A stretch of DNA of 34,085 nt, from positions 1-34,085 of the forward strand of contig JAHEIB010000013.1 of NCBI GenBank assembly GCA_024639645.1, read 5' to 3'. Shown piece after piece: positions 953 through 30,378 of the stretch. The notes beneath the pieces were generated by a model. That model searched no databases. It worked only from the letters and a program-made list of their open reading frames with translations, and was not told where the DNA came from. Position 1 is the stretch's first letter. Every line of letters begins with the position of its first letter. The DNA is from Deltaproteobacteria bacterium. GTDB lineage: Bacteria; Desulfobacterota; Desulfobacteria; Desulfobacterales; B30-G6. The translations under genes were made by a program, and so were the position numbers.

Positions 953-2512
953 ATGGCAGGTGCTGGGAAAGTTGATCGAGACATATCGTGCTTGAGAAAT
1001 GCAATTAACTGGTTGATTTCAGAGAAAGATATTATCGATAGCGATAAAGAAGTCAACCCAGATCTTGAAATAACCGCGCTCCAGAAAAAATTGGACGGCG
1101 GTCTAGGACTGCTCTTTAATAATGTCAAGGGATACCCTCATATCCAGGCAGTTACGAACATGTTTGCGAACCGAGAAATCATTAACAAGATTTTTGAGTG
1201 GAAAGATGAGAAAGATCGTACCGTCAAATTAAGCCAGGCCCTCGTAAACCCGATAGCTCCACTTGAGGTGAAAGACGCTCCAGTGCAGGAAGTGGTTATC
1301 ACCGAAGATCTTGATGTGAACAAATGGGTCCTGGCCATCCGGCACACAGCACTTGAATCCGAGCTTACAATTGGAAGCGGACAGACGGTTGTTGTAGGGC
1401 CCTACTTTGACGGCGGCACGCACATCAGCTACAACAGAATGAATTTCCGATGGGGAAATATCGGTACCTTCCAGATTTCGCCCGGCTCGCACATGTGGCA
1501 GATCATGACAGCTCACTACCAGGATGACAAACCAATTCCGCTGACAATGAATTTCGGGATCCCCCCCGCCGCTCAGTTGGCCGCCGGTAGTGGTTTTGAT
1601 TACGTCATTCTGCCCAAAGGCTGTGATGAACTCGGGGTTGCCGGTGCTATCCAGGGCTTTCCATTGAACATTGTGAAAGCCAAAACCATCGACGCCTACG
1701 CGCTCGCTGATGCCGAACTCGTTCTGGAAGGGTATCTCCATCCCAGGGATAAGCGCTTCGAAACAAAGGAAGCGGAAGACTCTGGTGTACAGGGCAGGCA
1801 CTTTTTTCACCCTGAATGGGCGGGATATATGGGTAAGGCATACAAAGCACCCACCCTACATGTTACGGCTATCACCATGCGAGATCCCAAAAAAGAAAAA
1901 ATAACCATCTGGCCAATGGCGGTTCACACTGCCGATGCCCAAAACAATGACCAAATGATCCGTGAAGCGGCGATCTACGAGTTGTGCAATCGGCTGCAAC
2001 CGGGAATTATACAGGATGTCCATCTGCCTTATTGCATGACGGAGTGGGGTGGCTGTATCATCCAGGTGAAAAAACGCAATAGAATTGAAGAGGGCTGGCA
2101 GCGAAATTTTCTATCCGCAATCCTCTCCTGCAGTCAGGGAATGCGACTGGCCATAGCAGTGGACACAGACGTGGACATTTACAGCATGGATGATATCATG
2201 TGGGCAATGACCACCCGCGTAAACCCACGCACCGACATACTCAATCCTTTGCCGGGAGGACGTGGCCAGACCTTTATGCCGGCCGAAAGGATGACCGCCG
2301 GAGATAAGGAATGGACCGCTTCCAATACGACATTTGAAGGGGGTATGGGCATTGACGCCACCTTTCCTTTCGGCTACGAAAAGGATTTTCACAGACCGGA
2401 ATATGCGGTTGAAAGAGTGGATCCAAAAGATTGGTTCAGTGAAGACGATGTAGATCTTATAAAATCACGGATGAAGGGTTGGGTGGAACAGCTTGCAGCA
2501 ACCGGTCGTTAA
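953..2512 (+). CDS. UbiD-family (de)carboxylase, large divergent type
   Basis: A 519-residue UbiD-family protein, expected to use prenylated FMN to remove or add a carboxyl group on an aromatic or unsaturated acid. GGAGG lies 5 nt before the ATG. By-eye alignment to the two canonical UbiDs at 22467 and 24020 places the metal/prFMN region at residues 157-180 (HISYNRM, then QISPGSH), with H157, H180 and E226 as likely ligands and R162 as the catalytic Arg. The motif EGPFGE is replaced by HFFHPE (283-288): the second Glu is kept (E288), while the first is His283. The same pattern (HPEW[AS]GYMGK) recurs in the UbiD at 28834, so the two are a distinct pair. Such divergent UbiDs include aromatic-ring carboxylases (phenylphosphate and proposed naphthalene/phenanthrene types), but the substrate here is unknown. 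It heads the unit followed by two cupins. Confidence 0.9.
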   Translation: MAGAGKVDRDISCLRNAINWLISEKDIIDSDKEVNPDLEITALQKKLDGGLGLLFNNVKGYPHIQAVTNMFANREIINKIFEWKDEKDRTVKLSQALVNPIAPLEVKDAPVQEVVITEDLDVNKWVLAIRHTALESELTIGSGQTVVVGPYFDGGTHISYNRMNFRWGNIGTFQISPGSHMWQIMTAHYQDDKPIPLTMNFGIPPAAQLAAGSGFDYVILPKGCDELGVAGAIQGFPLNIVKAKTIDAYALADAELVLEGYLHPRDKRFETKEAEDSGVQGRHFFHPEWAGYMGKAYKAPTLHVTAITMRDPKKEKITIWPMAVHTADAQNNDQMIREAAIYELCNRLQPGIIQDVHLPYCMTEWGGCIIQVKKRNRIEEGWQRNFLSAILSCSQGMRLAIAVDTDVDIYSMDDIMWAMTTRVNPRTDILNPLPGGRGQTFMPAERMTAGDKEWTASNTTFEGGMGIDATFPFGYEKDFHRPEYAVERVDPKDWFSEDDVDLIKSRMKGWVEQLAATGR

Positions 2513-2625: not shown

Positions 2626-3153
2626 ATGGAAGAAGAAAAAGAAGTCAAGTGGGACCGATGGCAAAAGAAGCGCATTTTTGTTCGTGAACTATCTGGAAAA
2701 TACAACGAAATTTACAAACGCCTGGTCGAACAACCCAGGGTCTATAGCAGTACAGATATTCCATTTAAAGGTGGCCCGGCAAAATTCAATAAACATATTG
2801 TGAATCCTCAGCAAAATTTAATCACCCAGCTAGTCGAAGCCCATATCGACGTTGTTCCGCCTAACAGCTATGGTCAAAAACATGGCCATATGAACAGTGC
2901 GGTCATGTTTATTCTGGAAGGCAAAGGCCACGATGTGCACGATGGAAAAAGAATCGACTGGGAGGCCGGGGATGCGGCCATCGTCGATAATGCTTGTGTA
3001 CACCAACACTTTTGCGATGGCGACATACCAGCGCGGTATATCATCATCAAGGCCAAGCCGGTTTTCCTGTTTGCCCATTTGCTGTTTCAAAAAACCGTGT
3101 CATACCCGCCGGATCATGCACCGGAAGGCTACGAAGACTATCATCCAGAATAA
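2626..3153 (+). CDS. Cupin-domain protein, type A (3-His)
   Basis: A 175-residue single-domain cupin. GGAGG sits 7 nt before the ATG. Cupin motif 1 is KHGHMNSAVMFILEGKG (from residue 85): H86 and H88 are present, but the position of the usual Glu is Ala92. Motif 2 (from G115) supplies H126 within VHQHF. This leaves a three-His site, a pattern also found in thiol and gentisate-type dioxygenases, although an oxygenase is hard to reconcile with the otherwise anaerobic gene set. The paralogue at 21777 shares the stretches KHGH, DVHDGKR and VHQHF and also lacks the Glu. It is followed after 26 bp by cupin B. Role unknown: isomerase, hydrolase, lyase or accessory to the UbiD are all possible. Confidence 0.85.
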   Translation: MEEEKEVKWDRWQKKRIFVRELSGKYNEIYKRLVEQPRVYSSTDIPFKGGPAKFNKHIVNPQQNLITQLVEAHIDVVPPNSYGQKHGHMNSAVMFILEGKGHDVHDGKRIDWEAGDAAIVDNACVHQHFCDGDIPARYIIIKAKPVFLFAHLLFQKTVSYPPDHAPEGYEDYHPE

Positions 3154-3179: not shown

Positions 3180-3731
3180 ATGCCATATGAAGAATCTCAA
3201 CTCGCATCTCTGGGAGACCAAAAAACTGACTTTTATCAGCAAGCCCTGGAGGAATCCAAATTATTTAGAGTGGATTACCAAAACAGGAAAGGTATCATCA
3301 AACCCAGCGAAATGCTCTGGGAGAATTCGCCGGACGGCAAGATAAAACACATTATCAATGAAAAAATGAACACCAAGGAATGTGCGCTGGATATGTATAT
3401 GCAGTTCCTCGACCCAACGGGTTGTTCAGGCAAACATCGCCATATGTCTGAAGAGTTATTCTTTGTTCTCGAAGGTGTTGGTTACGACCTGCATTGGGAT
3501 GTGGATTTCGAACTAGATGACGATTACACCTGGATCTGGGAAAAGGAACCTAAAAAATTTGAGTGGAAAGAGGGCGACATTGTCTATGTGCCCCCCTATT
3601 CAATTCACCAGCACTTTAACAGCGATTCTGGAAACACAGCAAGACTGCTCGTTACCACAAGCCGTATTCCCAAAGCTTTAGGTTTTGACTGGTTCGACCA
3701 GATCGAAAATGCCCCGGGGTATGGAGGATAG
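3180..3731 (+). CDS. Cupin-domain protein, type B (3-His-1-Glu)
   Basis: A 183-residue cupin with GGAG 7 nt before its ATG. Motif 1 is GKHRHMSEELFFVLEG (residues 84-99) and holds H86, H88 and the canonical Glu92. Motif 2 (EGDIVYVPPYSIHQHFN, 131-147) supplies H143. The full 3-His-1-Glu metal set is therefore intact, unlike its neighbour at 2626. The paralogue at 21159 shares GKHRHM.EE, LHWDVE-like and IHQHFN segments and the ending (LENAPEFG here reads IENAPGYG). The invariant pairing with cupin A suggests a two-component or heteromeric cupin. The stop lies at 3729-3731, next to the start region of the IDI-2 paralogue. Substrate and reaction cannot be read from the sequence. Confidence 0.85.
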   Translation: MPYEESQLASLGDQKTDFYQQALEESKLFRVDYQNRKGIIKPSEMLWENSPDGKIKHIINEKMNTKECALDMYMQFLDPTGCSGKHRHMSEELFFVLEGVGYDLHWDVDFELDDDYTWIWEKEPKKFEWKEGDIVYVPPYSIHQHFNSDSGNTARLLVTTSRIPKALGFDWFDQIENAPGYGG

Positions 3732-3750: not shown

Positions 3751-4812
3751 GTGCCAAATAAAACAGGCCGGCGCTATCCTGGCAAAACGTCGTCACCGGA
3801 TGACAAAGGCGAACATATTCGCCTTTGTCTTGAAAATGACATGGAATCAAGCTGTTCCAACGGTTTCGAAAAATACAGGCTTATCAATCAACCGCTGCCT
3901 GAGATTTTGTTCAGCTCTGTAGATACCTCCTGCAGATTCCTAGGCAAAGATATTTCGGCACCTTTTATTATTTCCCCCATAACAGGAGGGAGCGATCTTT
4001 CAAAGACCATCAATACAAATTTAGCAAAAGCCGCCCAAGCCCTTAGGCTGGTTTTGTCCGTCGGGTCTCAGCGCCTGGCCCTGGAAAACCCGGATCTTGC
4101 CGCCACATACCAGATCAGGCAAATAGCACCGGACATACCCATTATAGCCAATCTCGGTGCAATTTATCTCAATTACGGCTACGGTCTTAAAGATTGTGAA
4201 GCAGCCGTAAAGATGATTCAGGCTGATGCACTCTGTCTTTACCTAAATCCCATGCAGAAAATTCTTCAAGGGAGCCCAGATCTGGATTTCAAAGGCCTTG
4301 TCGATAAGATAGCCCATCTTTGCCGCCATCTCAGCGTCCCTGTAATGGTTAAAGAGGTTGGTTTTGGTCTTTCGCCACTGGCAGCAGAATTGCTTGCAGA
4401 CGTTGGAGTTGCTTGCATAGATATCGCCGGCGCCGGTGGTACTTCATGGGCAAAAATCACCCGGCAAATGAAAAAGTCTATCTGGGGTGAAACGGGTGCC
4501 TGTTTCGATGACTGGGGAACGCCCACCGCCGATGCCCTGGTCGCTGTTAGAAAGGCAGTTGGCAGTATTCAAATCGTCGCCTCAGGTGGCATCCGAAATG
4601 GCCTTGATATGGCAAAAGCACTGGCTCTGGGGGCAGATTACGCGGGCATGGCACTTCCGCTGCTGCGCCCTGCAACGCAGTCGGCCAATGCCGTAAAATT
4701 GCGGATAGAAGCGGTTTTGCGAGAACTTAGAATCACCATGTTCTGCAGCGGGATCCGAACACTGGAAGGTTTTAACGGAGACAGAAACATCATCGAGCTT
4801 TGTCATACATGA
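3751..4812 (+). CDS. Type 2 isopentenyl-diphosphate isomerase paralogue
   Basis: An FMN-dependent TIM-barrel protein of about 353 residues with the IDI-2 signature in order: KGEHIRLCLEND (19-30), GFEKYRL, ISPITGG (74-80), NLGA (134-137), LNPMQK (155-160), VKEVGFGLS (180-188), DIAGAGGTSWAKI (204-216), DDWGTPT (233-239) and ASGGIRNGLDMAKALALGA (247-265). IDI-2 converts isopentenyl to dimethylallyl diphosphate. The proton-transfer Gln is present (Q159), but the adjacent metal-binding Glu of the usual NxxQE motif is Lys160, the following EGD is missing, and the Arg of RKxxHI is Asp18. Activity may therefore differ from a normal IDI-2. I chose GTG 3751 (AGGA at 8 nt); ATG 3721, overlapping the cupin stop, is the alternative. 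Its place in a UbiD operon suggests a link to prenyl supply for prFMN, or a new FMN reaction. Confidence 0.8.
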   Translation: MPNKTGRRYPGKTSSPDDKGEHIRLCLENDMESSCSNGFEKYRLINQPLPEILFSSVDTSCRFLGKDISAPFIISPITGGSDLSKTINTNLAKAAQALRLVLSVGSQRLALENPDLAATYQIRQIAPDIPIIANLGAIYLNYGYGLKDCEAAVKMIQADALCLYLNPMQKILQGSPDLDFKGLVDKIAHLCRHLSVPVMVKEVGFGLSPLAAELLADVGVACIDIAGAGGTSWAKITRQMKKSIWGETGACFDDWGTPTADALVAVRKAVGSIQIVASGGIRNGLDMAKALALGADYAGMALPLLRPATQSANAVKLRIEAVLRELRITMFCSGIRTLEGFNGDRNIIELCHT

Positions 4813-4853: not shown

Positions 4854-4998
4854 TAGAAGCCATCTCAAAAAAAGGGTTTTGGTTCAAGTTCAAGGCGGGC
4901 CCGAACTTCAACCCACAGGCATACTGGAGTATTCCGAGGAGTTGAAGCAAGGGAACAACACAGAAATTGGGCAAAAAACTTTTTTGAGATAGCTTCTA
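4854..4998. mobile_element. MITE-like element with 20-bp terminal inverted repeats
   Basis: A 145-bp non-coding element bounded by TA on both sides. The left end reads TAGAAGCCATCTCAAAAAAA and the reverse complement of the right end TAGAAGCTATCTCAAAAAAG, 18 of 20 identical. No transposase is inside. The TA boundary fits elements mobilised by IS630/Tc1-type transposases. It lies between the convergent IDI-2 paralogue and MFS gene, where the T-runs at its ends might also stop transcription from both sides. Confidence 0.6.
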
Positions 4999-21158: not shown

Positions 21159-21743
21159 TCAATCGGATCGTATATCTTCGAGGTACACTGACCAATCTTT
21201 ATCTCCGAACTCCGGGGCATTTTCCAGTTGCTCCAGATCATCCAACCCCATGAACCGGATAATCCGGCTTTCCGCCGAGATGAAACGCAGTGAATTTTCT
21301 GGATCGTCGTTAAAATGCTGATGTATCGTGTTGGGAGGGATGTATACAGAATCGCCTTTTTCCCATTCCCACCGGGAGGGGGAGTCCGGTACTTTCCAGG
21401 TGTACCTGTCTCCAAGTTCCATCTCGACATCCCAGTGCAGGGAATACCCCTTGCCTTCGAGTATAAACATATACTCTTCACCCATATGCCGATGTTTACC
21501 CGATTTACTGCCGGCCGGGATGAGCTGGATGACAAGATCCAGTGTGTTTTCAACCGTTGCCATTTCCTCATGAACCAGATGCTTGAGTATGCCCTGCTCA
21601 CAATTATCCCACGGCATGTCCTCGGGGGTGATCAGGGACCTCAAATTCTCCTTCTGCGCCTGTTCAGCTGATCTTAACCGGTCCCGGTACCATGTTACTT
21701 CATGGTCTCGGTAATTCGCGTTAACTTTTTCTTCGTAACTCAT
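21159..21743 (-). CDS. Cupin-domain protein, type B' (3-His-1-Glu)
   Basis: A 194-residue cupin paralogous to the one at 3180. Motif 1 is GKHRHMGEEYMFILEG (82-97) with H84, H86 and Glu90; motif 2 (KGDSVYIPPNTIHQHFN) supplies H141. The metal set is complete. The shared C-terminal stretch (LDDLEQLENAPEFG versus a similar DWFDQIENAPGYG) confirms common descent. GAGG precedes ATG 21743. It follows cupin A' by 33 bp, the same order as in the left operon. Reaction unknown. Confidence 0.87.
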   Translation of the reverse strand: MSYEEKVNANYRDHEVTWYRDRLRSAEQAQKENLRSLITPEDMPWDNCEQGILKHLVHEEMATVENTLDLVIQLIPAGSKSGKHRHMGEEYMFILEGKGYSLHWDVEMELGDRYTWKVPDSPSRWEWEKGDSVYIPPNTIHQHFNDDPENSLRFISAESRIIRFMGLDDLEQLENAPEFGDKDWSVYLEDIRSD

Positions 21744-21776
21744 GGATAGTCCTCTTTTCTACCTAATGGGTCGATG

Positions 21777-22343
21777 CTATTTAATGGTGGGTTTGAAATC
21801 CTCATGACCCGGCATCGGGTCTTTGGGCTGCCCTTCCACAACATCCTGGAAAAGCATATTCATAAAAAGGAAAAAGGGTTTCGACTTGATAATCAGGGCA
21901 CGTGCCGGCCGTTCTGTATCGGCATTAAAGTGCTGGTGAACCGTTGCATTGGGCACGATGGCTACGTCACCGGCTTTCCAGTCCACCCGTTTTCCGTCAT
22001 GAACATCGTAACCTTTGCCATCCAGAATGTAAAAACAGGCCCCGTTGACATGCCCGTGCTTCTGTGATTTTCCGCCCGGCGCGACCACAACCATGTGGGC
22101 ATACAACGATTGGGAGGTTCCGTTTTTGGGGCTTAGGATCGTCCAGTTAAAATATTGGGGGCCTTTTTTGAATCCCCGGTCGCGGCCTTTGATGACCCGT
22201 GGAAGACTCCTCAGCCGCTTTAATTCCTCATCCAGACAATAGCTGTGTCCGCTGATCTCCCGAACGAAAAGACGCGGTTTGTCATAATTGAGCTGTCCGG
22301 CGGCACCGTCATCATATTTGTCTTCAAGATCTTGGGTGCTCAC
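21777..22343 (-). CDS. Cupin-domain protein, type A' (3-His)
   Basis: A 188-residue cupin paralogous to the one at 2626. Motif 1 is KHGHVNGACFYILDGKG (from residue 95) with H96 and H98; the Glu position is Ala102, the same loss as in its paralogue. Motif 2 gives H136 (PNATVHQHFN). Shared segments include RLFVREISG, GYDVHDGKR and KSKPFFLF. The start is GTG 22343 with a strong GGAGG 6 nt upstream. It lies 123 bp after the canonical UbiD gene, which repeats the UbiD-A-B order of the left operon. Confidence 0.87.
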   Translation of the reverse strand: MSTQDLEDKYDDGAAGQLNYDKPRLFVREISGHSYCLDEELKRLRSLPRVIKGRDRGFKKGPQYFNWTILSPKNGTSQSLYAHMVVVAPGGKSQKHGHVNGACFYILDGKGYDVHDGKRVDWKAGDVAIVPNATVHQHFNADTERPARALIIKSKPFFLFMNMLFQDVVEGQPKDPMPGHEDFKPTIK

Positions 22344-22466
22344 AGTTTCCCTCCTTTTAAAATTTGCTTAGAAGTATTTTCAAAACCCCATTTAACGCCT
22401 GAATCCGGTTTTGCAAACCACGTCTATTTGCCTTTTCCTAAAAGCCATTAATTACTTCCTTGGTCC

Positions 22467-23900
22467 TTAACTGAAAAGTTTGTCTGCCCACTTTTTTAAA
22501 GTGGCATCCCTAAGTTCAGGGCTGGATTCGACAACCGGAGAAAACGCGTCTTTCCACTCATAGGGCCTGCAGGCGTCGATGATGGCTCTGGAGTTAAACC
22601 CTTTCTTGCCCACAGGAATTCTTGGGTCCAAAGGACCGCTCCAGCACCGGCGGATGATCTCGATGGACTGCTCTGGCTCGGACCGAGAAGCGATGGCCCA
22701 GAGGACGTCGTTGGTATTGGAAGGGTCGATATCTTCATCCACCACAATCACATAACGGCCCAGGTACGCGCCAGCGTGACACTGGGAAGCGACCAAGCCG
22801 GCCTGCCGGGAATGGCCCGGATAAGCCTGCTTGATGGACACAATGTTGAACATCCGACCGCCACCGGATTCGTGACACCAGACGCCCTGTACATTCGGAA
22901 TACCGGCTTTTTCCATCTCATCCCAGATCATGGCTGACTTCACCACACACTTGCTGAGCAGATAATCGGACGGAGGCCGCCCCGGACGAGCGCAGCAGAG
23001 GATGGGGTCATTCCGGTAATAGACGTTCTTGACCTTGATCACCGGTTCGGGTCTTGCGCTGCTGGCATAGTAGCCGGTCCACTCGCCAAACGGGCCCTCT
23101 TCCTTTAAATCGCCGGGCAGCGCTTCGCCTTCCAAAACGATCTCGGCGTGGGCCGGAAACGGCAGACCGGTGGTTTCTCCCTTGATCACCTCGATGGCTT
23201 CACCTTTGAAGCCCCCGGCATAATCGTATTCGGACAACCCGTATGCCACCTCATTGCCCGAAGCCAGAAATAAGAGCGGATCCTGTCCCACACACACCAC
23301 CACCGGGCAAGGCTCATTTCTTTCAAAAAATTTCTGGCGTTGCAGGTTGCCATGTTTACCGGGCGAGATGTAAAAGGCCACGTGCTGTTCATCATGCACC
23401 ATCACGCGGTAGGCGCCGAAATTCACCCACCCTTCGTCCGGATCCCGGGTAATGATCAGGCACGCGGTACCGATATACCGGCCACCGTCAAGTTCATGCA
23501 TCTTGGGGACCGGAAATTTAAGAACATTGACGTCATCTCCCCTATCCACATTCTCTAAAATGGGTCCCCTTTCTACTGTTTTGGGGGGAATCGTCTTAAC
23601 CGTCTTCAGTTTATTGCGATAGGCTTGAATCAACTCCATTTCTGTTTTGATGGAAGAAGGAAAACCCAGGGTAAGTGCCATGCGCCTTACAGAGCATGTA
23701 GCACCGAAAAGCGTCCTGAAGCCTTCCGGATAACCAGGGACCTTGTCAAACAAAACGGCCGGAGGGATCCCCTTGCCTTCATGATAGATCAACTCTGTAA
23801 TGGCGCCCATCTCAAGGTCCCAGGCAGCCCCGTTCAGCTTCTTGAGCTGATCAAACCCTTCAACTGCCGACAGAAATTCCCTTACATCCTTGTAAGCCAT
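22467..23900 (-). CDS. UbiD-family decarboxylase, canonical type (1)
   Basis: A 477-residue UbiD-family enzyme that should use prenylated FMN for reversible decarboxylation in the cytoplasm. Spacing matches fungal Fdc1 closely: metal ligands N160, H183 (SPGKHG) and E224 (GLSEYD), catalytic R165 (AYRVMV), and the pair E268/E273 in EGPFGEWTGYY. GGAGGAG precedes ATG 23900. It is 119 bp downstream of a second canonical UbiD at 24020 and directly upstream of cupin A'. The pair may form a hetero-oligomer or act on successive substrates. Candidates are decarboxylases of phthaloyl-CoA or hydroxybenzoate type; the substrate is not readable from sequence. Confidence 0.93.
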   Translation of the reverse strand: MAYKDVREFLSAVEGFDQLKKLNGAAWDLEMGAITELIYHEGKGIPPAVLFDKVPGYPEGFRTLFGATCSVRRMALTLGFPSSIKTEMELIQAYRNKLKTVKTIPPKTVERGPILENVDRGDDVNVLKFPVPKMHELDGGRYIGTACLIITRDPDEGWVNFGAYRVMVHDEQHVAFYISPGKHGNLQRQKFFERNEPCPVVVCVGQDPLLFLASGNEVAYGLSEYDYAGGFKGEAIEVIKGETTGLPFPAHAEIVLEGEALPGDLKEEGPFGEWTGYYASSARPEPVIKVKNVYYRNDPILCCARPGRPPSDYLLSKCVVKSAMIWDEMEKAGIPNVQGVWCHESGGGRMFNIVSIKQAYPGHSRQAGLVASQCHAGAYLGRYVIVVDEDIDPSNTNDVLWAIASRSEPEQSIEIIRRCWSGPLDPRIPVGKKGFNSRAIIDACRPYEWKDAFSPVVESSPELRDATLKKWADKLFS

Positions 23901-24019
23901 ATTCTCCTCCTTGCCTCCTTTTTAACAAAACCCTGATCGAATCCTGGGTTTGATACTTTCAATATCCCTATCTCGACAATAGGGTTCCACCCCAACACCT
24001 TTCACATCAAACACTGTCA

Positions 24020-25471
24020 TCAGGCATCTTTTATCAGATACCCGAATTTTTCCCTGGTTTTCCGATCCCTTTCAGGGCTGGGCATGTTCACCCGTGGAAA
24101 TTGATCTTTCCAGGCATATGGCTTGGTTGCATCGATGATAGCCCTGGAGTTTGTCAGCTTGCCCTTTTTTTTGTCTTCCGGTGAAATTCGCGGATCCAGG
24201 TGGGTTGACCATGCATTGTTTATAATATCAATCGATGTGGCCGGATCGGATCGCGTCAGCATGGCCCAGGTCACCTCTTCAAGACTGGTCACATCGATAT
24301 CGTCATCCACAACAATGACATATTTTCCTGCATAGGCACCCACATGGCATTGAGACGCCACGTGCCCTACCTGTGCTGCATGCCCTGGGTATCTCTGGTT
24401 GATGGCGATAGTCAGGAGCATCCTGGAACTGCCGGCTTCATGAGCCCAGACGGCCGAAATGCCTGAAAGGCCGCTGGCCTTCAACTGCCTGTCCAGCAAG
24501 CCCGTACGAATCACCGCCCGGTAGCGGGCAATTTCATCTGGCGGCCGGTTGGGCGGGCACCCCAGTATGATCGGGTTGTTGCGGTGATAGACAGCTTTCA
24601 CATCAAATACCGGTTCATCCCGGGAACCACTTGCATAATAACCAGTCCACTCACCGAATGGTCCCTCCTCGAGGCGTTTCTTCGGGTCCACAAAACCCTC
24701 CAGAACGATCTCTGCATGGGCCGGAAGGGGCAGTCCGGTAATTTTCCCCTTGATCACCGGATAGGGTTTGCCTCTCAACCCGCCGGCCAAATCGTATTCA
24801 CTGATGCCGTACGGCACTTCATTGCATGCCATCAAAAACAGCAACGGGTCTCCCCCCACGACCACAGCCGCAGGCATGGGTTCATTGCGAGCCATGTACT
24901 TATCCCGATGGACACGGCCGTGTTTCCCAGGAGAGATGTAAAATCCAACCTGTTTTTGATCGTGCACCATGACACGGTAGGTCCCAAGATTGACCCAATT
25001 CTCATCGGGGTCGCGGGTAATGTTGTAGCTGCCGGTCCCGATATAGCGACCACCGTCATGTTCGTGCCATAGGGGTGTGGGAAATTTCAAAACATTGACG
25101 TCATCCCCCAACTGGACATTTTCCATTACCGGGCCGTCGTCCACGAACTTGTGGGGTATGGGCTCAAGCTTGTTGAAGGTTTCCGTAAAATATTTTGCCA
25201 GGGTAAATTTGCTGTCTGCATCCGGAAAACCAAGGGTCATATTCATCCGCTTGCCACCGAAAAAATTGGTTAACACACGATACCCTGCCGTATATCCGGG
25301 AATTTCATCAAACAAAGCTGCGGGAGCCGGATCGGTATGATGGAGCAGTTCGGTCGCCATCCCGATCTCCTCCTCGGTGTTGGCCCCGGAAACCGTTTTC
25401 ACTTCTCCAAGATCCTTTGCAGCACCCAGCCATTCTCTCAGATCTTCGTATAAAAAATTTGCCGCCGCCAC
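24020..25471 (-). CDS. UbiD-family decarboxylase, canonical type (2)
   Basis: A 483-residue UbiD enzyme, clearly paralogous to the one at 22467 across its length. It keeps N161, R166, H184, E225 and the E269/E274 pair (EEGPFGEWTGYY). The N-terminus differs (MAAANFLYEDLREWLGAAKD). The start is GTG 25471 with AAGGA 7 nt upstream. UbiX is encoded 59 bp upstream on the same strand, an arrangement that favours cofactor supply for these two enzymes. All catalytic residues are intact. Confidence 0.93.
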   Translation of the reverse strand: MAAANFLYEDLREWLGAAKDLGEVKTVSGANTEEEIGMATELLHHTDPAPAALFDEIPGYTAGYRVLTNFFGGKRMNMTLGFPDADSKFTLAKYFTETFNKLEPIPHKFVDDGPVMENVQLGDDVNVLKFPTPLWHEHDGGRYIGTGSYNITRDPDENWVNLGTYRVMVHDQKQVGFYISPGKHGRVHRDKYMARNEPMPAAVVVGGDPLLFLMACNEVPYGISEYDLAGGLRGKPYPVIKGKITGLPLPAHAEIVLEGFVDPKKRLEEGPFGEWTGYYASGSRDEPVFDVKAVYHRNNPIILGCPPNRPPDEIARYRAVIRTGLLDRQLKASGLSGISAVWAHEAGSSRMLLTIAINQRYPGHAAQVGHVASQCHVGAYAGKYVIVVDDDIDVTSLEEVTWAMLTRSDPATSIDIINNAWSTHLDPRISPEDKKKGKLTNSRAIIDATKPYAWKDQFPRVNMPSPERDRKTREKFGYLIKDA

Positions 25472-25530
25472 TTAAATTTCCTTTGCATTAATTGTTTGAT
25501 CGTTGTCAATTGCGAGGAGCATCCATTCAT

Positions 25531-26106
25531 TTATTTGTTTTTGGTGGTGATTTCACCCCAGTGATCAAACAAATGGTTTTCAATATGGAAACAGTCCAGC
25601 ACCTTGCCAACGAGATGGTTGATCACGTCATCGATGGTTTTCGGCCGATGATAAAACGTCATAAACGGGGGTAAAATCATCCCTCTCAACCGCTCGACCT
25701 TGGCCATTAAATCCAAATGCCCCGCATGAAGCGGAGATTCTCTTGGGACCACCACCAGTCTTCTGCGTTCCTTCAGGGTAACGTCGGCCGCCCGGATCAA
25801 CAGATTGGTGTTGAAGGAATTGGCCAGCGCCGACATGGTTTTCATTGAACAGGGAAGAATGACCATTCCCCTTGTTCGGAACGAACCGCTGGCAATGGGG
25901 GCCCCTATATCGCGAAAGTCATGCTCAACATCTGCCAGAGCGACCACATCCTCAACTTTCCAATCCGTTTCAAGCTTGATGGTCTTTTCGGTGGATTTCG
26001 ACATCACCAGGTGGACTTCATAATCAGACTTCCCCAACACCTCCAGCAATCGAATCCCGAGAATGGCACCGGATGCTCCTGACATTCCTACAACAATTCT
26101 CTCCAC
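25531..26106 (-). CDS. ubiX: UbiX-type flavin prenyltransferase
   Basis: A 191-residue UbiX/Pad1 protein that joins a dimethylallyl group from dimethylallyl phosphate to FMN, making prFMN for UbiD enzymes. The phosphate-loop GMSGASGAILGIRLLEVL starts at residue 7. SMKTMSALANSFNTNLLIRA and the LKERRRLVVVPRESPLH segment with Lys and Glu, then MTFYHRP with the conserved Tyr, follow in order. I chose GTG 26106 (GGAAGG 4 nt upstream), which gives the usual UbiX N-terminus; a longer frame would add 14 residues. It is the only UbiX in the window and may serve all five UbiD-like proteins. Confidence 0.95.
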   Translation of the reverse strand: MERIVVGMSGASGAILGIRLLEVLGKSDYEVHLVMSKSTEKTIKLETDWKVEDVVALADVEHDFRDIGAPIASGSFRTRGMVILPCSMKTMSALANSFNTNLLIRAADVTLKERRRLVVVPRESPLHAGHLDLMAKVERLRGMILPPFMTFYHRPKTIDDVINHLVGKVLDCFHIENHLFDHWGEITTKNK

Positions 26107-26184
26107 TATACCTTCCTTTCTGATGATATTGGTTTTCAAGTTTTTCACACGATGGCGTCATCTTTCGGTTTTTGAGAAAATAAC

Positions 26185-27402
26185 TCAGCCGATGGTTCCG
26201 TCCGTTTCCATTTTCTGGTATTCTTCATCCGACATACCTAAAAATTCTTTAAACACCCGTTCATTGTCTTCCCCGATGCACGGAAAAGCCTTGTCAATCT
26301 TGAACGGTGTCTTGGAAAATGCAAACGGGGGGCCTTCCGCATGATGCTTACCTACCACTTTATGGTCCACCGGTGCCCAGATCCCCCGCCTCACCAGCTG
26401 CGGGTCCTCAAAAAGCTCATCGATACCCTGAACAATCCCAGCCATGACACCATTTTCCTGGAGCGCCTTAAAAAGATATTCCGCCGGGTGCTCTGAACTC
26501 CACTCGGCAACAATGACATCGAGCTCCTCCTCGTTCTGTTTTCTCTTCAAAATGGTTTTAAACCGTGAATCGGAAATCAATCCCGGTTTTTCCATGGTGC
26601 TGCACAACCGCTCCCACTGTTGGTCGTTGAAAACACTGATGGCGCACCAGCTATCCTCTCCGGCGCAGGGATACACATTGTGGGGAGCGGCATAACCGTG
26701 CCGGTTGCCGTCCCGCTCCATGACCCGGTTGTTCACCGTGTAATCCAACAAGGCCGGCATCATAAACTGGACCCCGCACTCATACTGGGCCAGGTCGATC
26801 AACTGACCGGCACCCGTCTTGTGCTTGTGTATCAAAGCTCCGACCAATGCAACGACACCGTATCCCACCCCTATATGGTCCACGTAGGGCCCGTACAGAA
26901 TGACCGGATCTCTATCCTTATACCCGGTTACACTGGTAAACCCGCACAAAGACGACAGGTGAGAACCAAATCCTGGGTGACGGGCGTGGGGACCGTCTTG
27001 GCCCTGGTTACAGGTACTGAGCATGATGATATCTGGTTTAGTGGCTTTTAAATCTTCATACCCAAGGCCAAGCTTTGCCATGGTCCCCGGTGTAAAATTT
27101 TCGGTTACCACATCCGCCCATGAGGCCAGTCGTTTGGCCAGATCGATGCCGCCCGGAGCCTTCAAGTTGATGGTAACATCCAGTTTATTGTTGTTGCAGA
27201 TCCCGAAAGAACCGGAACGGTCATACCCCGGTTCGTTATCCTTAAAAGGTGGGTAATTGGCTCTGAATCCGTCCGGCCGTGCGTAAGATTCCACGTGCAC
27301 CACCGTAGCCCCGTGATCGGCACAAAATTTTCCGATGAGCGGCCCAGCCGCAATAGCGGCAAATTCGACAATCTTAAGGTCTTTAAAAATGCCCTGATTC
27401 AT
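26185..27402 (-). CDS. CaiB/BaiF family III CoA-transferase subunit lacking catalytic Asp
   Basis: A 405-residue family III CoA-transferase homologue. The N-terminal Rossmann region (LKIVEFAAIAAGPLIGKFCADHGATVVHVE) and the later SVTGYKDRDPV segment align with the neighbour at 27421. At the position of that neighbour's catalytic Asp145 (GADLVLTAMSG) it has Gly146 (GFGSHLSSLCG). The acyl-enzyme intermediate cannot form on it in the usual way, so it is probably the non-catalytic partner of a heteromer, as described for benzylsuccinate CoA-transferase (BbsEF). GGAG lies 7 nt before ATG 27402; 18 bp separate it from the partner gene. Confidence 0.87.
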   Translation of the reverse strand: MNQGIFKDLKIVEFAAIAAGPLIGKFCADHGATVVHVESYARPDGFRANYPPFKDNEPGYDRSGSFGICNNNKLDVTINLKAPGGIDLAKRLASWADVVTENFTPGTMAKLGLGYEDLKATKPDIIMLSTCNQGQDGPHARHPGFGSHLSSLCGFTSVTGYKDRDPVILYGPYVDHIGVGYGVVALVGALIHKHKTGAGQLIDLAQYECGVQFMMPALLDYTVNNRVMERDGNRHGYAAPHNVYPCAGEDSWCAISVFNDQQWERLCSTMEKPGLISDSRFKTILKRKQNEEELDVIVAEWSSEHPAEYLFKALQENGVMAGIVQGIDELFEDPQLVRRGIWAPVDHKVVGKHHAEGPPFAFSKTPFKIDKAFPCIGEDNERVFKEFLGMSDEEYQKMETDGTIG

Positions 27403-27420
27403 GAGTGTTCTCCATTGTAC

Positions 27421-28674
27421 CTAAATAATTTTGGCGCGTTTCATGTTGAGCAAATCCTGAACTTGGTACCCCAGTTCGCCATATATTTCTTCGTTGTGTT
27501 CACCAATCTTCGGCGCGCGCCGCCATAAATTGCAGGCAATATCTGAAAATTTAGCAAAAAAAGACGGATAAACAATCTCTTCACCAAGATCCTCGTGTGC
27601 CAGCGTTTTCCAAAGATCCCGTGATCGGAGTTGTTCGTCTTTCATCGTGTCTTCTGAAGTTGCCACAGGGTATCCCAGCATGTCTTTTTCAAGGACTTTT
27701 TCAAAAAATTCCGATTTTGTGGTGGTCAGTAAGAAGTCATCGTTGGATCTCTCGATTTCATCGATCTCTTCCTGGGTCACAGCAGCAATATTGAATTTTT
27801 TCCAGTCTTTCTGCTTCAGGTGATCCGGTGCCATACCCTTGCTGTCCATCCACTCTGTCATTCGCACATTGGTCCTGATGCCAGCCGGCCCCCCGTAAAT
27901 GATGTAATTGACATATCCATCCTTGCAAGGACTGACGGCACGCATTTTCGCCCCGGTAATACTTCGACCAGTAATGAACCCCCCTGCCCGCTTGGGCACT
28001 TCCCCATTGTAGTCATAAAATGAAGGCGCAATGGAGCATGCCCACAACAGACTGGCTTGGGCGGAAACATCCACATGTTGACCCTCACCGGTAATTTCCC
28101 TATGGTAGTATGCCATTATCGTACCGGTAGCCGCGTGCATCCCAGTCCACATATAACTCTGGGGCAGAGTCACCCTGACAGGCGGTCTGTCAGGGTCTCC
28201 CACCAATGACATAAACCCACTCATGGCCGTCAAGACCAGATCCGCTCCGGTATAATCTTTATAGGGTCCCGTCTGCCCAAAAGGGGTGATGGAGGTGATG
28301 ATGAGACCGGGGTTGATTTGGCTCAGTGTATCATAATCCAGCCCCAGGCCTTCCATAAATCCCGGCGGGAAGGTTTCGATGACGATATCGGCGGTCTGGA
28401 CGAGCTGTTTAAAAATATCGGCGCCGGATTTTGTTTCGATATCCAGGGTGATCCCCCGCTTGTTGTGGTTATAGGAAAACCAGTAAAGGTTTCTTTCCGG
28501 ATCCGGTCGATCTTTATAATAGGTGCCTAAATTCCGTGATGGATCACCACCGGGTTTTTCGATTTTAATCACATCGGCACCCAAATCGCCTAAAATCTTA
28601 CCGCACAGAAATCCCAGTTCATTGCTGAGATCCAGAACTCGGCAATTTTCCAGTACTTTCACTTTTTCTGCCAT
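27421..28674 (-). CDS. CaiB/BaiF family III CoA-transferase, catalytic subunit
   Basis: A 417-residue family III CoA-transferase with the expected catalytic Asp145 in YTGADLVLTAMSGF. The N-terminal motif VLDLSNELGFLCGKILGDLGADVIKIE and GSKGMAP-like later regions follow the family pattern. It would move CoA from a donor such as succinyl-CoA to a carboxylic acid. It lies upstream of its Asp-less neighbour, with UbiX and two UbiDs next, so substrate activation before decarboxylation is a reasonable reading. The ribosome binding site (AGGG 8 nt before ATG 28674) is modest. Donor and acceptor are unknown. Confidence 0.9.
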   Translation of the reverse strand: MAEKVKVLENCRVLDLSNELGFLCGKILGDLGADVIKIEKPGGDPSRNLGTYYKDRPDPERNLYWFSYNHNKRGITLDIETKSGADIFKQLVQTADIVIETFPPGFMEGLGLDYDTLSQINPGLIITSITPFGQTGPYKDYTGADLVLTAMSGFMSLVGDPDRPPVRVTLPQSYMWTGMHAATGTIMAYYHREITGEGQHVDVSAQASLLWACSIAPSFYDYNGEVPKRAGGFITGRSITGAKMRAVSPCKDGYVNYIIYGGPAGIRTNVRMTEWMDSKGMAPDHLKQKDWKKFNIAAVTQEEIDEIERSNDDFLLTTTKSEFFEKVLEKDMLGYPVATSEDTMKDEQLRSRDLWKTLAHEDLGEEIVYPSFFAKFSDIACNLWRRAPKIGEHNEEIYGELGYQVQDLLNMKRAKII

Positions 28675-28833
28675 TTAGCTAACCCTGTCTTTTCTATTTT
28701 GGTTTAAATTTCCTTGTCACTTGAATTTTCCGACTTTGCTTTCCTGCCATCAGTTAACATGATTGCAGCGCCCCGGGACACCCGCCGTTAATGCAAAGCT
28801 TTCCCGGGACCAGAAAATGCCGCCCAGAAATGT

Positions 28834-30378
28834 CTATATTCCCATCTCTGAGAACCATTTGGCATATGATTCTTGATAGGTTTTCGCCTTTTGAATCTGT
28901 TCATCGCTGAACCAATCTTTCAAATCTACCATTTCGATAGGGTAGCTGGCCCTTTCGAAATCTTCCTGGTAAACCTTGGGCACGGTTGCATCCAAACCGA
29001 TGGCTCCGGAAAACCGAATGTTATTCTGGGTCCATTGCTTTTCTCCGGCAGAACTTCGCTCTGCCGGCTGGAAGGTCTGGCCCATGCCGCCCGGAGCCAC
29101 GATTTGGAAATCATCCACCGCATCAACGCGAGTGGCAATGGCCCAGAGAAGATCGTCGGCAGAATAAATGTTGATATCCGTATCCACAACGATTCCCAGG
29201 CGCGCGCCCAGGGAGCAGGAAAGGGCCGCAGCCAAGATATTTCGCGGGTAGCCCTCGTCCCGTGCGCGCCTTTTTTTAACCTGAAACACGATGCCACCCC
29301 AATCCGGTATGCACATGGGAATGTGAGTATCCACACAAAAGCCCGGGCTGATACGTTCCGCCAATTCGAAAAAACATGCTTCCCGGGCCAGTACATCGAT
29401 ATTGTGGTCTTCATAGCCGTGGACAACCAGCGGATCATAAATAGGCCTATCTTTCCGGTGGGTGATGCCTGTTACGTTGAAGCGCCAGGTTCGATAGGAT
29501 TTCCCCATGTACCCGGACCACTCCGGATGGAATGGGTATCGTCCCTGTACATTTTCCTTCTCAGCCTGGGGATGTTCCCAGAGTTTTTGGGTGGTATCCA
29601 GATATCCTTCGATAACGTATTCCGCTTGGGCAATAGCGTAGGCATCGATGGTTTTGCATTTAACCATTTCAAGGGGAAATCCCTGTATCGAGCCCGCGAT
29701 TCCGAGTTCATCACATCCCCTGGGTAAGATGGTGTACATGAAACCGGCGCCGGCCATCAGCGTGGCTGCCGGCGGGATGCCGATGTTGATTGAAAACGGA
29801 ATCGGTTTTTTCTTGTAAAATTGAGTTGCAATCTGGTCCGTGTGGGATCCAGGTGATATTTGAAAGGTGGCCTTGTCTTTCCAGTGCTGATCTTCCCTGA
29901 AACTCATTCGGTTGTAAGAAATGTGCCATCCGCCCCAAAATTCGTTGGGGGAGGCAACTGTTTTGCCGGCACCGAGGGTTCGTCCCGGATCTTTGGGTGT
30001 GTGCTGGATCATGGGGATGATCGGCCAAACATCTATATCTTTATCGATTACCACTTCCTGACAGGGTGCATCGTCAACGATCACCGGCGCCGTAGGTTTT
30101 AGAATCGACTCATGAATCTTAAATTTCAACGCTTTGCGGTCCTTACAACCGAACATTTGTGCACCGATTTTATCCGACCCGAAAACATTGGTTGCCAGAC
30201 GAGCGTTGGGATACTCTTTAACATTATTAAAAATTATAGGCGGGCCGCCATCCAATGATTTCTGAATGGCCGCCATTTCGCATCTGGGATCAATCTCGTG
30301 ATCAGTTTCAAGAAGCAATCCCTCCTTTTTCAACCACTCCAGATTTGTTCTTAAACTTCGAAGATGATCGTTCGACAT
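28834..30378 (-). CDS. UbiD-family (de)carboxylase, large divergent type (2)
   Basis: A 514-residue UbiD-family protein paralogous to the one at 953; both share HISYNRM, FQISPGSH, GCDELG.AG, and HPEW[AS]GYMGK blocks. Likely ligands are H152, H179 and E224, with R157. The second catalytic Glu is E286, but the first is replaced by Tyr281 (His in the 953 protein). GGAGG precedes ATG 30378. It is the first enzyme gene after the regulator, 100 bp downstream of the regulator stop. The changed acid/base set may indicate a different reaction direction or substrate from the canonical pair, for example ring carboxylation. Function remains unassigned. Confidence 0.9.
   Translation of the reverse strand: MSNDHLRSLRTNLEWLKKEGLLLETDHEIDPRCEMAAIQKSLDGGPPIIFNNVKEYPNARLATNVFGSDKIGAQMFGCKDRKALKFKIHESILKPTAPVIVDDAPCQEVVIDKDIDVWPIIPMIQHTPKDPGRTLGAGKTVASPNEFWGGWHISYNRMSFREDQHWKDKATFQISPGSHTDQIATQFYKKKPIPFSINIGIPPAATLMAGAGFMYTILPRGCDELGIAGSIQGFPLEMVKCKTIDAYAIAQAEYVIEGYLDTTQKLWEHPQAEKENVQGRYPFHPEWSGYMGKSYRTWRFNVTGITHRKDRPIYDPLVVHGYEDHNIDVLAREACFFELAERISPGFCVDTHIPMCIPDWGGIVFQVKKRRARDEGYPRNILAAALSCSLGARLGIVVDTDINIYSADDLLWAIATRVDAVDDFQIVAPGGMGQTFQPAERSSAGEKQWTQNNIRFSGAIGLDATVPKVYQEDFERASYPIEMVDLKDWFSDEQIQKAKTYQESYAKWFSEMGI

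Follow-up and report, generated by a model that had tools for sequence, protein, structure and literature searches.

The IDI-2-like gene and its surroundings

The window, by which we mean the whole 34,085-nucleotide stretch of DNA analysed here, carries a same-strand run in which the gene for a UbiD-family decarboxylase is followed by two cupin genes and then by one encoding a protein that resembles type 2 isopentenyl-diphosphate isomerase (IDI-2), the successive gaps being 113, 26 and 19 nt; the UbiD operon context proposed from the sequence alone therefore stands. The features on which our analysis draws are as follows, with equivalent residues of the Sulfolobus shibatae enzyme given in brackets.

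953..2512, plus strand: UbiD-family decarboxylase that opens the same-strand run; phthaloyl-CoA decarboxylase candidate
2626..3153, plus strand: Cupin_2 protein 1
3180..3731, plus strand: Cupin_2 protein 2
3751..4812, plus strand: IDI-2-like protein of the K subfamily; intact ORF, start GTG at 3751, alternative ATG at 3721
3799..3816, plus strand: DDKGEH motif, with Asp18 (Arg7), Lys19 (Lys8) and His22 (His11)
4246..4260, plus strand: NPMQK motif, with Gln169 (Gln160) and Lys170 (Glu161, presumed Mg ligand)
25531..26148, minus strand: UbiX flavin prenyltransferase, His at the position of Phe181 in Pseudomonas aeruginosa UbiX (‘Pa181’)
26185-27402 and 27421-28674, minus strand: two class III CoA transferases
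28834..30378, minus strand: second UbiD, of the same type as 953-2512, upstream of the two CoA transferases

Just 3′ of the IDI-like gene lies a 19-bp inverted repeat (4854-4872 / 4980-4998, 95% complementary, 107 nt spacer), which resembles a small MITE-type element. The minus strand between 7145 and 13294 holds genes for an aldehyde ferredoxin oxidoreductase-like protein, a flavin-reductase-domain protein, an acetolactate-synthase-like TPP enzyme and a class II aldolase. The same strand carries a second UbiD cluster (21159-30378), in which a UbiD, the two class III CoA transferases and UbiX are joined by two more UbiD genes and a second cupin pair. The UbiX gene is 20.7 kb from the IDI-like gene and on the opposite strand.

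An IDI-2 homologue with an altered metal–diphosphate site

By profile and by fold the window protein is a homologue of IDI-2. It scores 359.8 bits against TIGR02151 (type 2 isopentenyl-diphosphate isomerase; cut-off 281.3), its best matches in the PDB are the Thermus thermophilus and S. shibatae enzymes, and it is ~37-42% identical to the nearest solved ones (2zrw; T. thermophilus 1vcf/3dh7). Its AlphaFold2 model (pLDDT 92) aligns with the S. shibatae structure containing FMN and IPP (2zrw) at a TM score of 0.91 and a deviation of 1.6 Å, so that the predicted fold is the IDI-2 TIM-barrel.

Glu161 of S. shibatae IDI-2 is the residue that we take to hold Mg2+. Arg7, Lys8, Arg98 and His155 of the same enzyme are near the substrate, with the acid–base role probably falling to the flavin N5 (PMC3509576). 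On alignment, the window protein has Lys170 for Glu161, Tyr164 for His155 and Asp18 for Arg7, and has also lost Glu229 and Arg232; the flavin-side residues, Lys8 and Gln160 are shared. The sequence-only reading had recognised NPMQK in place of NxxQE and Asp18 in place of the Arg of RKxxH, both of which the alignment confirms, and had missed the change at His155; it named the right residues as Q159 and K160 but misnumbered them by ten, the count from the GTG at 3751 giving Gln169 and Lys170. The EGD motif is absent, as it had said, but this is no diagnostic sign, the motif being absent from the solved S. shibatae and T. thermophilus enzymes too, and we have set it aside. With Arg7, His155 and Glu161 all replaced, the name ‘IPP isomerase’ is therefore unsuited to the window protein ahead of an assay.

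The substitutions mark a single clade

Searches of ~765 genomes of the same phylum turned up seven further proteins that carry LYLNP[ML]QK (one each in G187, G413, G727, G732 and G751, two copies in G420), which share 56-60% identity with the window protein across the aligned region; the K subfamily thus consists of eight proteins from seven genomes. All eight form one clade in a tree of 53 proteins (support 100/98), with that of G413 branching first. The K substitutions hence mark a clade of single origin, and the Lys, being clade-wide, is no isolated change.

In S. shibatae numbering, Lys161 is present in 8/8 K proteins versus 0/46 canonical sequences, Tyr155 in 8/8 versus 1/46, and Asp7 in 7/8 (Val in G413) versus 0/46, with Glu161 found throughout the canonical set. 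What looked like a ‘QI’ variant in Bacillota was an artefact of an overlapping pattern, the alignment placing Glu161 in those sequences. Lys8, His11, Thr68, Ser96, Asn125 and Gln160 are retained in every K protein and in at least 97% of the canonical set, Asn157 and Glu194 are invariant in both groups, and Gly69 and Gly70 are kept as well. The switched residues are those of the metal–diphosphate side, and the chemical end of the site is therefore spared; joint alteration of three positions that are near-invariant in the canonical sequences would be unexpected were the substrate unchanged. Asp18 and Lys170 might represent an ion-pair swap that keeps the metal site, but the basal G413 protein has Val7.

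The sequence-only reading called the protein a paralogue, which our data do not bear out: a search of the window's assembly (83.6% complete) for another IDI-2, and with an IDI-1 profile, found no second IDI-2 and no IDI-1 above cut-off, and the same holds for canonical IDI-2 and IDI-1 across the K genomes. As the sole IDI homologue found in its genome, the window protein could be a standard IPP isomerase that serves isoprenoid synthesis at large, with a site tolerant of changes and an incidental neighbourhood. The majority of genomes in our class and phylum samples, however, have no full-length IDI-2 match, and the enzyme is therefore seemingly unneeded for general isoprenoid synthesis there; given also the altered Mg/diphosphate site and the enrichment of neighbours described below, we regard this explanation as quite improbable.

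Gene neighbourhoods of K-type and canonical IDI-2

The gene orders at the K loci are listed first, followed by those of canonical IDI-2 genes from the same phylum (RFK, CTP-dependent riboflavin kinase, PF01982; HAD, phosphatase; PNPOx, PNPOx-like flavoprotein; X191, see below).

Window, K: UbiD-cupin-cupin-IDI
G413, K: UbiD-HAD-RFK/HAD-UbiX-RFK-IDI
G732, K: UbiD-RFK-X191-IDI-SdhB-SdhA-UbiD
G420, K (two loci): same parts as G732, interrupted by masked stretches
G727, K: UbiD-UbiX-RibBA-HAD-RFK-SCP2-HAD-HAD-ABC-ABC-X191-IDI-PNPOx-SdhB-SdhA
G187, K: X191-IDI-PNPOx
G751, K: X191-IDI-PNPOx, UbiX ~4.5 kb further
G082, canonical: UbiX-IDI
G315 and G638, canonical: UbiD-UbiX-IDI, overlapping
G483, canonical: RFK-UbiX-IDI-PNPOx
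G120, canonical: UbiD-UbiX-RibBA-IDI-UbiD
G227, canonical: IDI-HAD-RFK, UbiX 4.9 kb off
G326, canonical: IDI-RFK-HAD

K-type genes thus have among their neighbours UbiX, RFK, RibBA, HAD phosphatases or a PNPOx-like flavoprotein. A UbiD gene is found within 10 kb at 6/8 K loci, and the two without one carry the PNPOx-like and X191 genes of the loci for prenylated FMN (prFMN), the cofactor of UbiD decarboxylases (one of them UbiX besides). The case that the sequence-only reading had named as its refutation, a solitary Lys whose relatives sit away from UbiD loci, is thus not what we observe, and the link to prFMN supply is sustained. Canonical IDI-2 of the same phylum is near UbiX in 7/9 cases, with UbiX and IDI overlapping or adjacent in G082, G315, G638 and G483; this count excludes G292, G331, G366 and G381, where no such prFMN or flavin genes were found beside the canonical gene.

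The number of UbiX genes in these genomes ranges from zero to three and is one or two in most. At 11/21 loci a UbiX gene is no more than 10 kb from the IDI-2 gene, against 0.15 expected (p 4e-19), and the same is true of 4/8 K loci taken alone, against 0.07 (p 3e-7); the test presumes random gene placement, and since real placement is non-random and the loci are partly dependent (G420 contributes two copies, one of them almost indistinguishable from the G732 protein), the p-values serve as a rough guide only. At 32 canonical IDI-2 loci of other phyla, drawn from a contig scan that yielded canonical IDI-2 only, mostly from other phyla, and covering in most cases up to 10 kb per side with some limited by short contigs, 0/32 had UbiX, UbiD, RFK, HAD, PNPOx, RibBA or X191 at E 1e-6.

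The catabolic neighbours vary from locus to locus (phthalate-type in the window, fumarate-reductase-like SdhAB in G420, G732 and G727, BcrAD-type in G751) while the flavin, prenyl and UbiX genes recur. This argues against the alternative offered by the sequence-only reading, in which the protein would carry out some other FMN chemistry on the aromatic compound or its CoA ester, an idea that draws on the UbiD and cupins of the window operon and on the versatility of the FMN-dehydrogenase superfamily; the phosphate-side residues are moreover kept, and we hold it to be very improbable. The K genes show the co-location with ubiX and ubiD across lineages that is expected of a prFMN accessory protein, and the link between the K subfamily and prFMN supply is well supported.

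Flavin-handling neighbours

Among the control genomes, PF01982 was matched only in the four archaea. The kinase occurs here in bacterial UbiX/UbiD/IDI-2 loci, in one case fused to a HAD phosphatase; no riboflavin kinase of this type was found in the window's genome. The role of the HAD genes may be in riboflavin synthesis rather than in producing monophosphates. The coordinates of the kinase genes, and of a second recurrent family, X191, are:

PF01982 riboflavin kinase: L085:3786-4847; L084:11101-11508; L106:3096-3503; L107:4019-4699; L086:7437-7862; L067:11563-12048; L108:9956-10417
X191: L106:3606-4181; L065:10404-10979; L107:8818-9393; L116:8189-8764; L084:10423-10998; L112:7112-7702

X191 is a family of 191 residues, 52-58% conserved across lineages and with a CxxC (RCLPC), whose gene directly precedes that of the K-type IDI at five loci and adjoins RFK/HAD in G120. 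It has no match in Pfam or NCBIfam, and a fold search with its model (pLDDT 72) gave no confident match; we put it forward as a candidate new prFMN accessory protein.

The second UbiX gene of the window's genome (G000 contig 257, L117:566-1150) overlaps a PNPOx homologue (1147-1665) by 4 bp, which links a PNPOx-like flavoprotein to UbiX in this genome too; the pair adjoins a molybdopterin oxidoreductase.

Chaperones that bind prFMN and maturases resembling flavin reductases are dedicated parts of other UbiD systems (PMC10865409, PMC13040415), and the K protein might by analogy have given up prenyl-phosphate isomerisation, its FMN pocket and the isoprenoid pocket over N5 instead binding prFMN or prFMNH2. 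It would then serve UbiD by carrying, maturing or isomerising prFMN, a role like that of LpdD or PhdC. The altered diphosphate end of the site and, in the window, the position of the IDI-like gene closely behind UbiD would suit such a role. We nevertheless judge it improbable: the phosphate-side Lys8 and Ser96, together with Gln160, are retained in all eight K proteins, canonical IDI-2 holds the equivalent operon position in sister lineages, and the PNPOx-like flavoproteins of these loci are better maturase candidates.

Donor specificity of UbiX

UbiX requires dimethylallyl mono- or diphosphate. The P. aeruginosa enzyme (PaUbiX, Phe181) is specific for DMAP and that of Aspergillus niger (AnUbiX, Gln203 at Pa181) for DMAPP, O157UbiX (His164 at Pa181) uses both, and a single residue is insufficient to settle specificity (PMC6541611). 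Gln or His occupies Pa181 in 15/15 UbiX sequences of the loci described here, rather than the Phe of the DMAP-specific type, in K-linked and canonical-linked loci alike, so the residue does not separate the two groups; on that evidence DMAPP is at least as likely a donor. PaUbiX binds isopentenyl monophosphate yet does not use it (PMC6541611), and an isomerase would therefore be needed if the monophosphate is the source.

These UbiX residues, shared with DMAPP-using AnUbiX and dual-use O157UbiX, favour a prFMN-pathway isomerase that still takes IPP, Lys170 binding the diphosphate in the stead of Mg2+ (or Asp18 acting as metal ligand), and so makes DMAPP for a DMAPP-type UbiX; the canonical IDI-2 genes in equivalent operon position in sister lineages favour it as well. 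The joint change of Glu161, His155 and Arg7 speaks against it, as does Val7 in G413, which means that an Asp metal ligand is not general, and we consider it rather unlikely.

A candidate phthalate-type pathway in the window

The first UbiD of the window (953-2512) shares 70% identity with a UbiD on plasmid 2 of Aromatoleum aromaticum EbN1, a known anaerobic phthalate degrader by a CoA-transferase route (PMC13040137; PMC8269228), and is therefore a candidate phthaloyl-CoA decarboxylase. The plasmid cluster has the order UbiX-UbiD-CoA transferase-CoA transferase, with class III CoA transferases 46-47% identical to those of the window, and the cluster at 21159-30378 resembles it; unlike the window, the part of the plasmid that was viewed carries no annotated gene for an IDI-like protein or a cupin. 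G187 (L118) carries the same cluster as 21159-30378, its UbiD, UbiX and CoA-transferase genes being 73-81% identical. Phthaloyl-CoA decarboxylase is thought to be held at high levels, phthaloyl-CoA being unstable (PMC13040137), which would explain a high demand for prFMN.

Discussion

Taken with the conserved chemical end of the site, the gene neighbourhoods lead us to propose that the K protein works in prFMN supply as an isomerase with flavin and the IDI-2 fold, feeding UbiX and with its phosphate site rebuilt, a proposal that we regard as evenly poised. Speaking against it, besides the UbiX residues, are the distance of 20.7 kb and the opposite strand of UbiX in the window and the failure to find a PF01982 kinase in that genome. 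We infer the catalysis, the substrate and the delivery to UbiX. The K protein would bind FMN, the residues around the flavin N5 that serve to protonate and deprotonate a C5 alkene being retained, and would turn an isopentenyl phosphate into its dimethylallyl form; UbiX would then attach the dimethylallyl group to FMNH2, and the prFMN so formed would serve the operon's UbiD decarboxylase, probably a phthaloyl-CoA decarboxylase. The recurring genes would fall into place around these steps: RibBA and RFK making FMN, HAD hydrolysing phosphates, the PNPOx-like protein handling flavin, UbiX prenylating FMN and UbiD using the product, with the IDI-2 fitting as supplier of the dimethylallyl donor.

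Lys170, Tyr164 and Asp18, in place of the metal-binding Glu, the diphosphate-side His and the Arg, would amount to a rebuilt Mg2+–diphosphate site. Its likeliest outcome may be a metal-free headgroup site that accepts isopentenyl monophosphate, the substrate suggested in the sequence-only reading, giving DMAP, and the next likeliest one that accepts metal-free IPP; loss of the metal site would point to a less charged substrate such as a monophosphate, which is plausible for the K subfamily. More tentatively, we suggest a dedicated, Mg2+-independent and FMN-dependent IP-to-DMAP isomerase that arose from IDI-2 within prFMN operons; as these also encode riboflavin synthesis and a CTP-dependent riboflavin kinase, they would constitute a complete supply of the UbiD cofactor, and the isomerase would be a new activity.

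Dedicated cofactor accessory genes, those for the LpdD chaperone and the PhdC maturase, are known from the UbiX–UbiD prFMN system and share the UbiX/UbiD neighbourhood of the K genes; LpdD and PhdC differ in having folds unrelated to IDI-2 and in acting on prFMN after UbiX, where the K protein would act before it. A literature search covering few subscription papers found no description of an IDI in prFMN operons.

To our knowledge, the cellular source of the dimethylallyl donor of UbiX, above all of the monophosphate, is unclear. The loci described here gather riboflavin synthesis, riboflavin kinase, phosphatases, an isomerase, UbiX and UbiD, and so bring the question within reach of direct tests on a set of five or six genes. 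If the IDI-2 site has been rebuilt, nature would here have carried a prenyl-phosphate enzyme from metal–diphosphate to metal-free binding, and the genes of the K loci could aid production of active UbiD enzymes, such as phthaloyl-CoA decarboxylase and the benzene and naphthalene carboxylases, in laboratory hosts.
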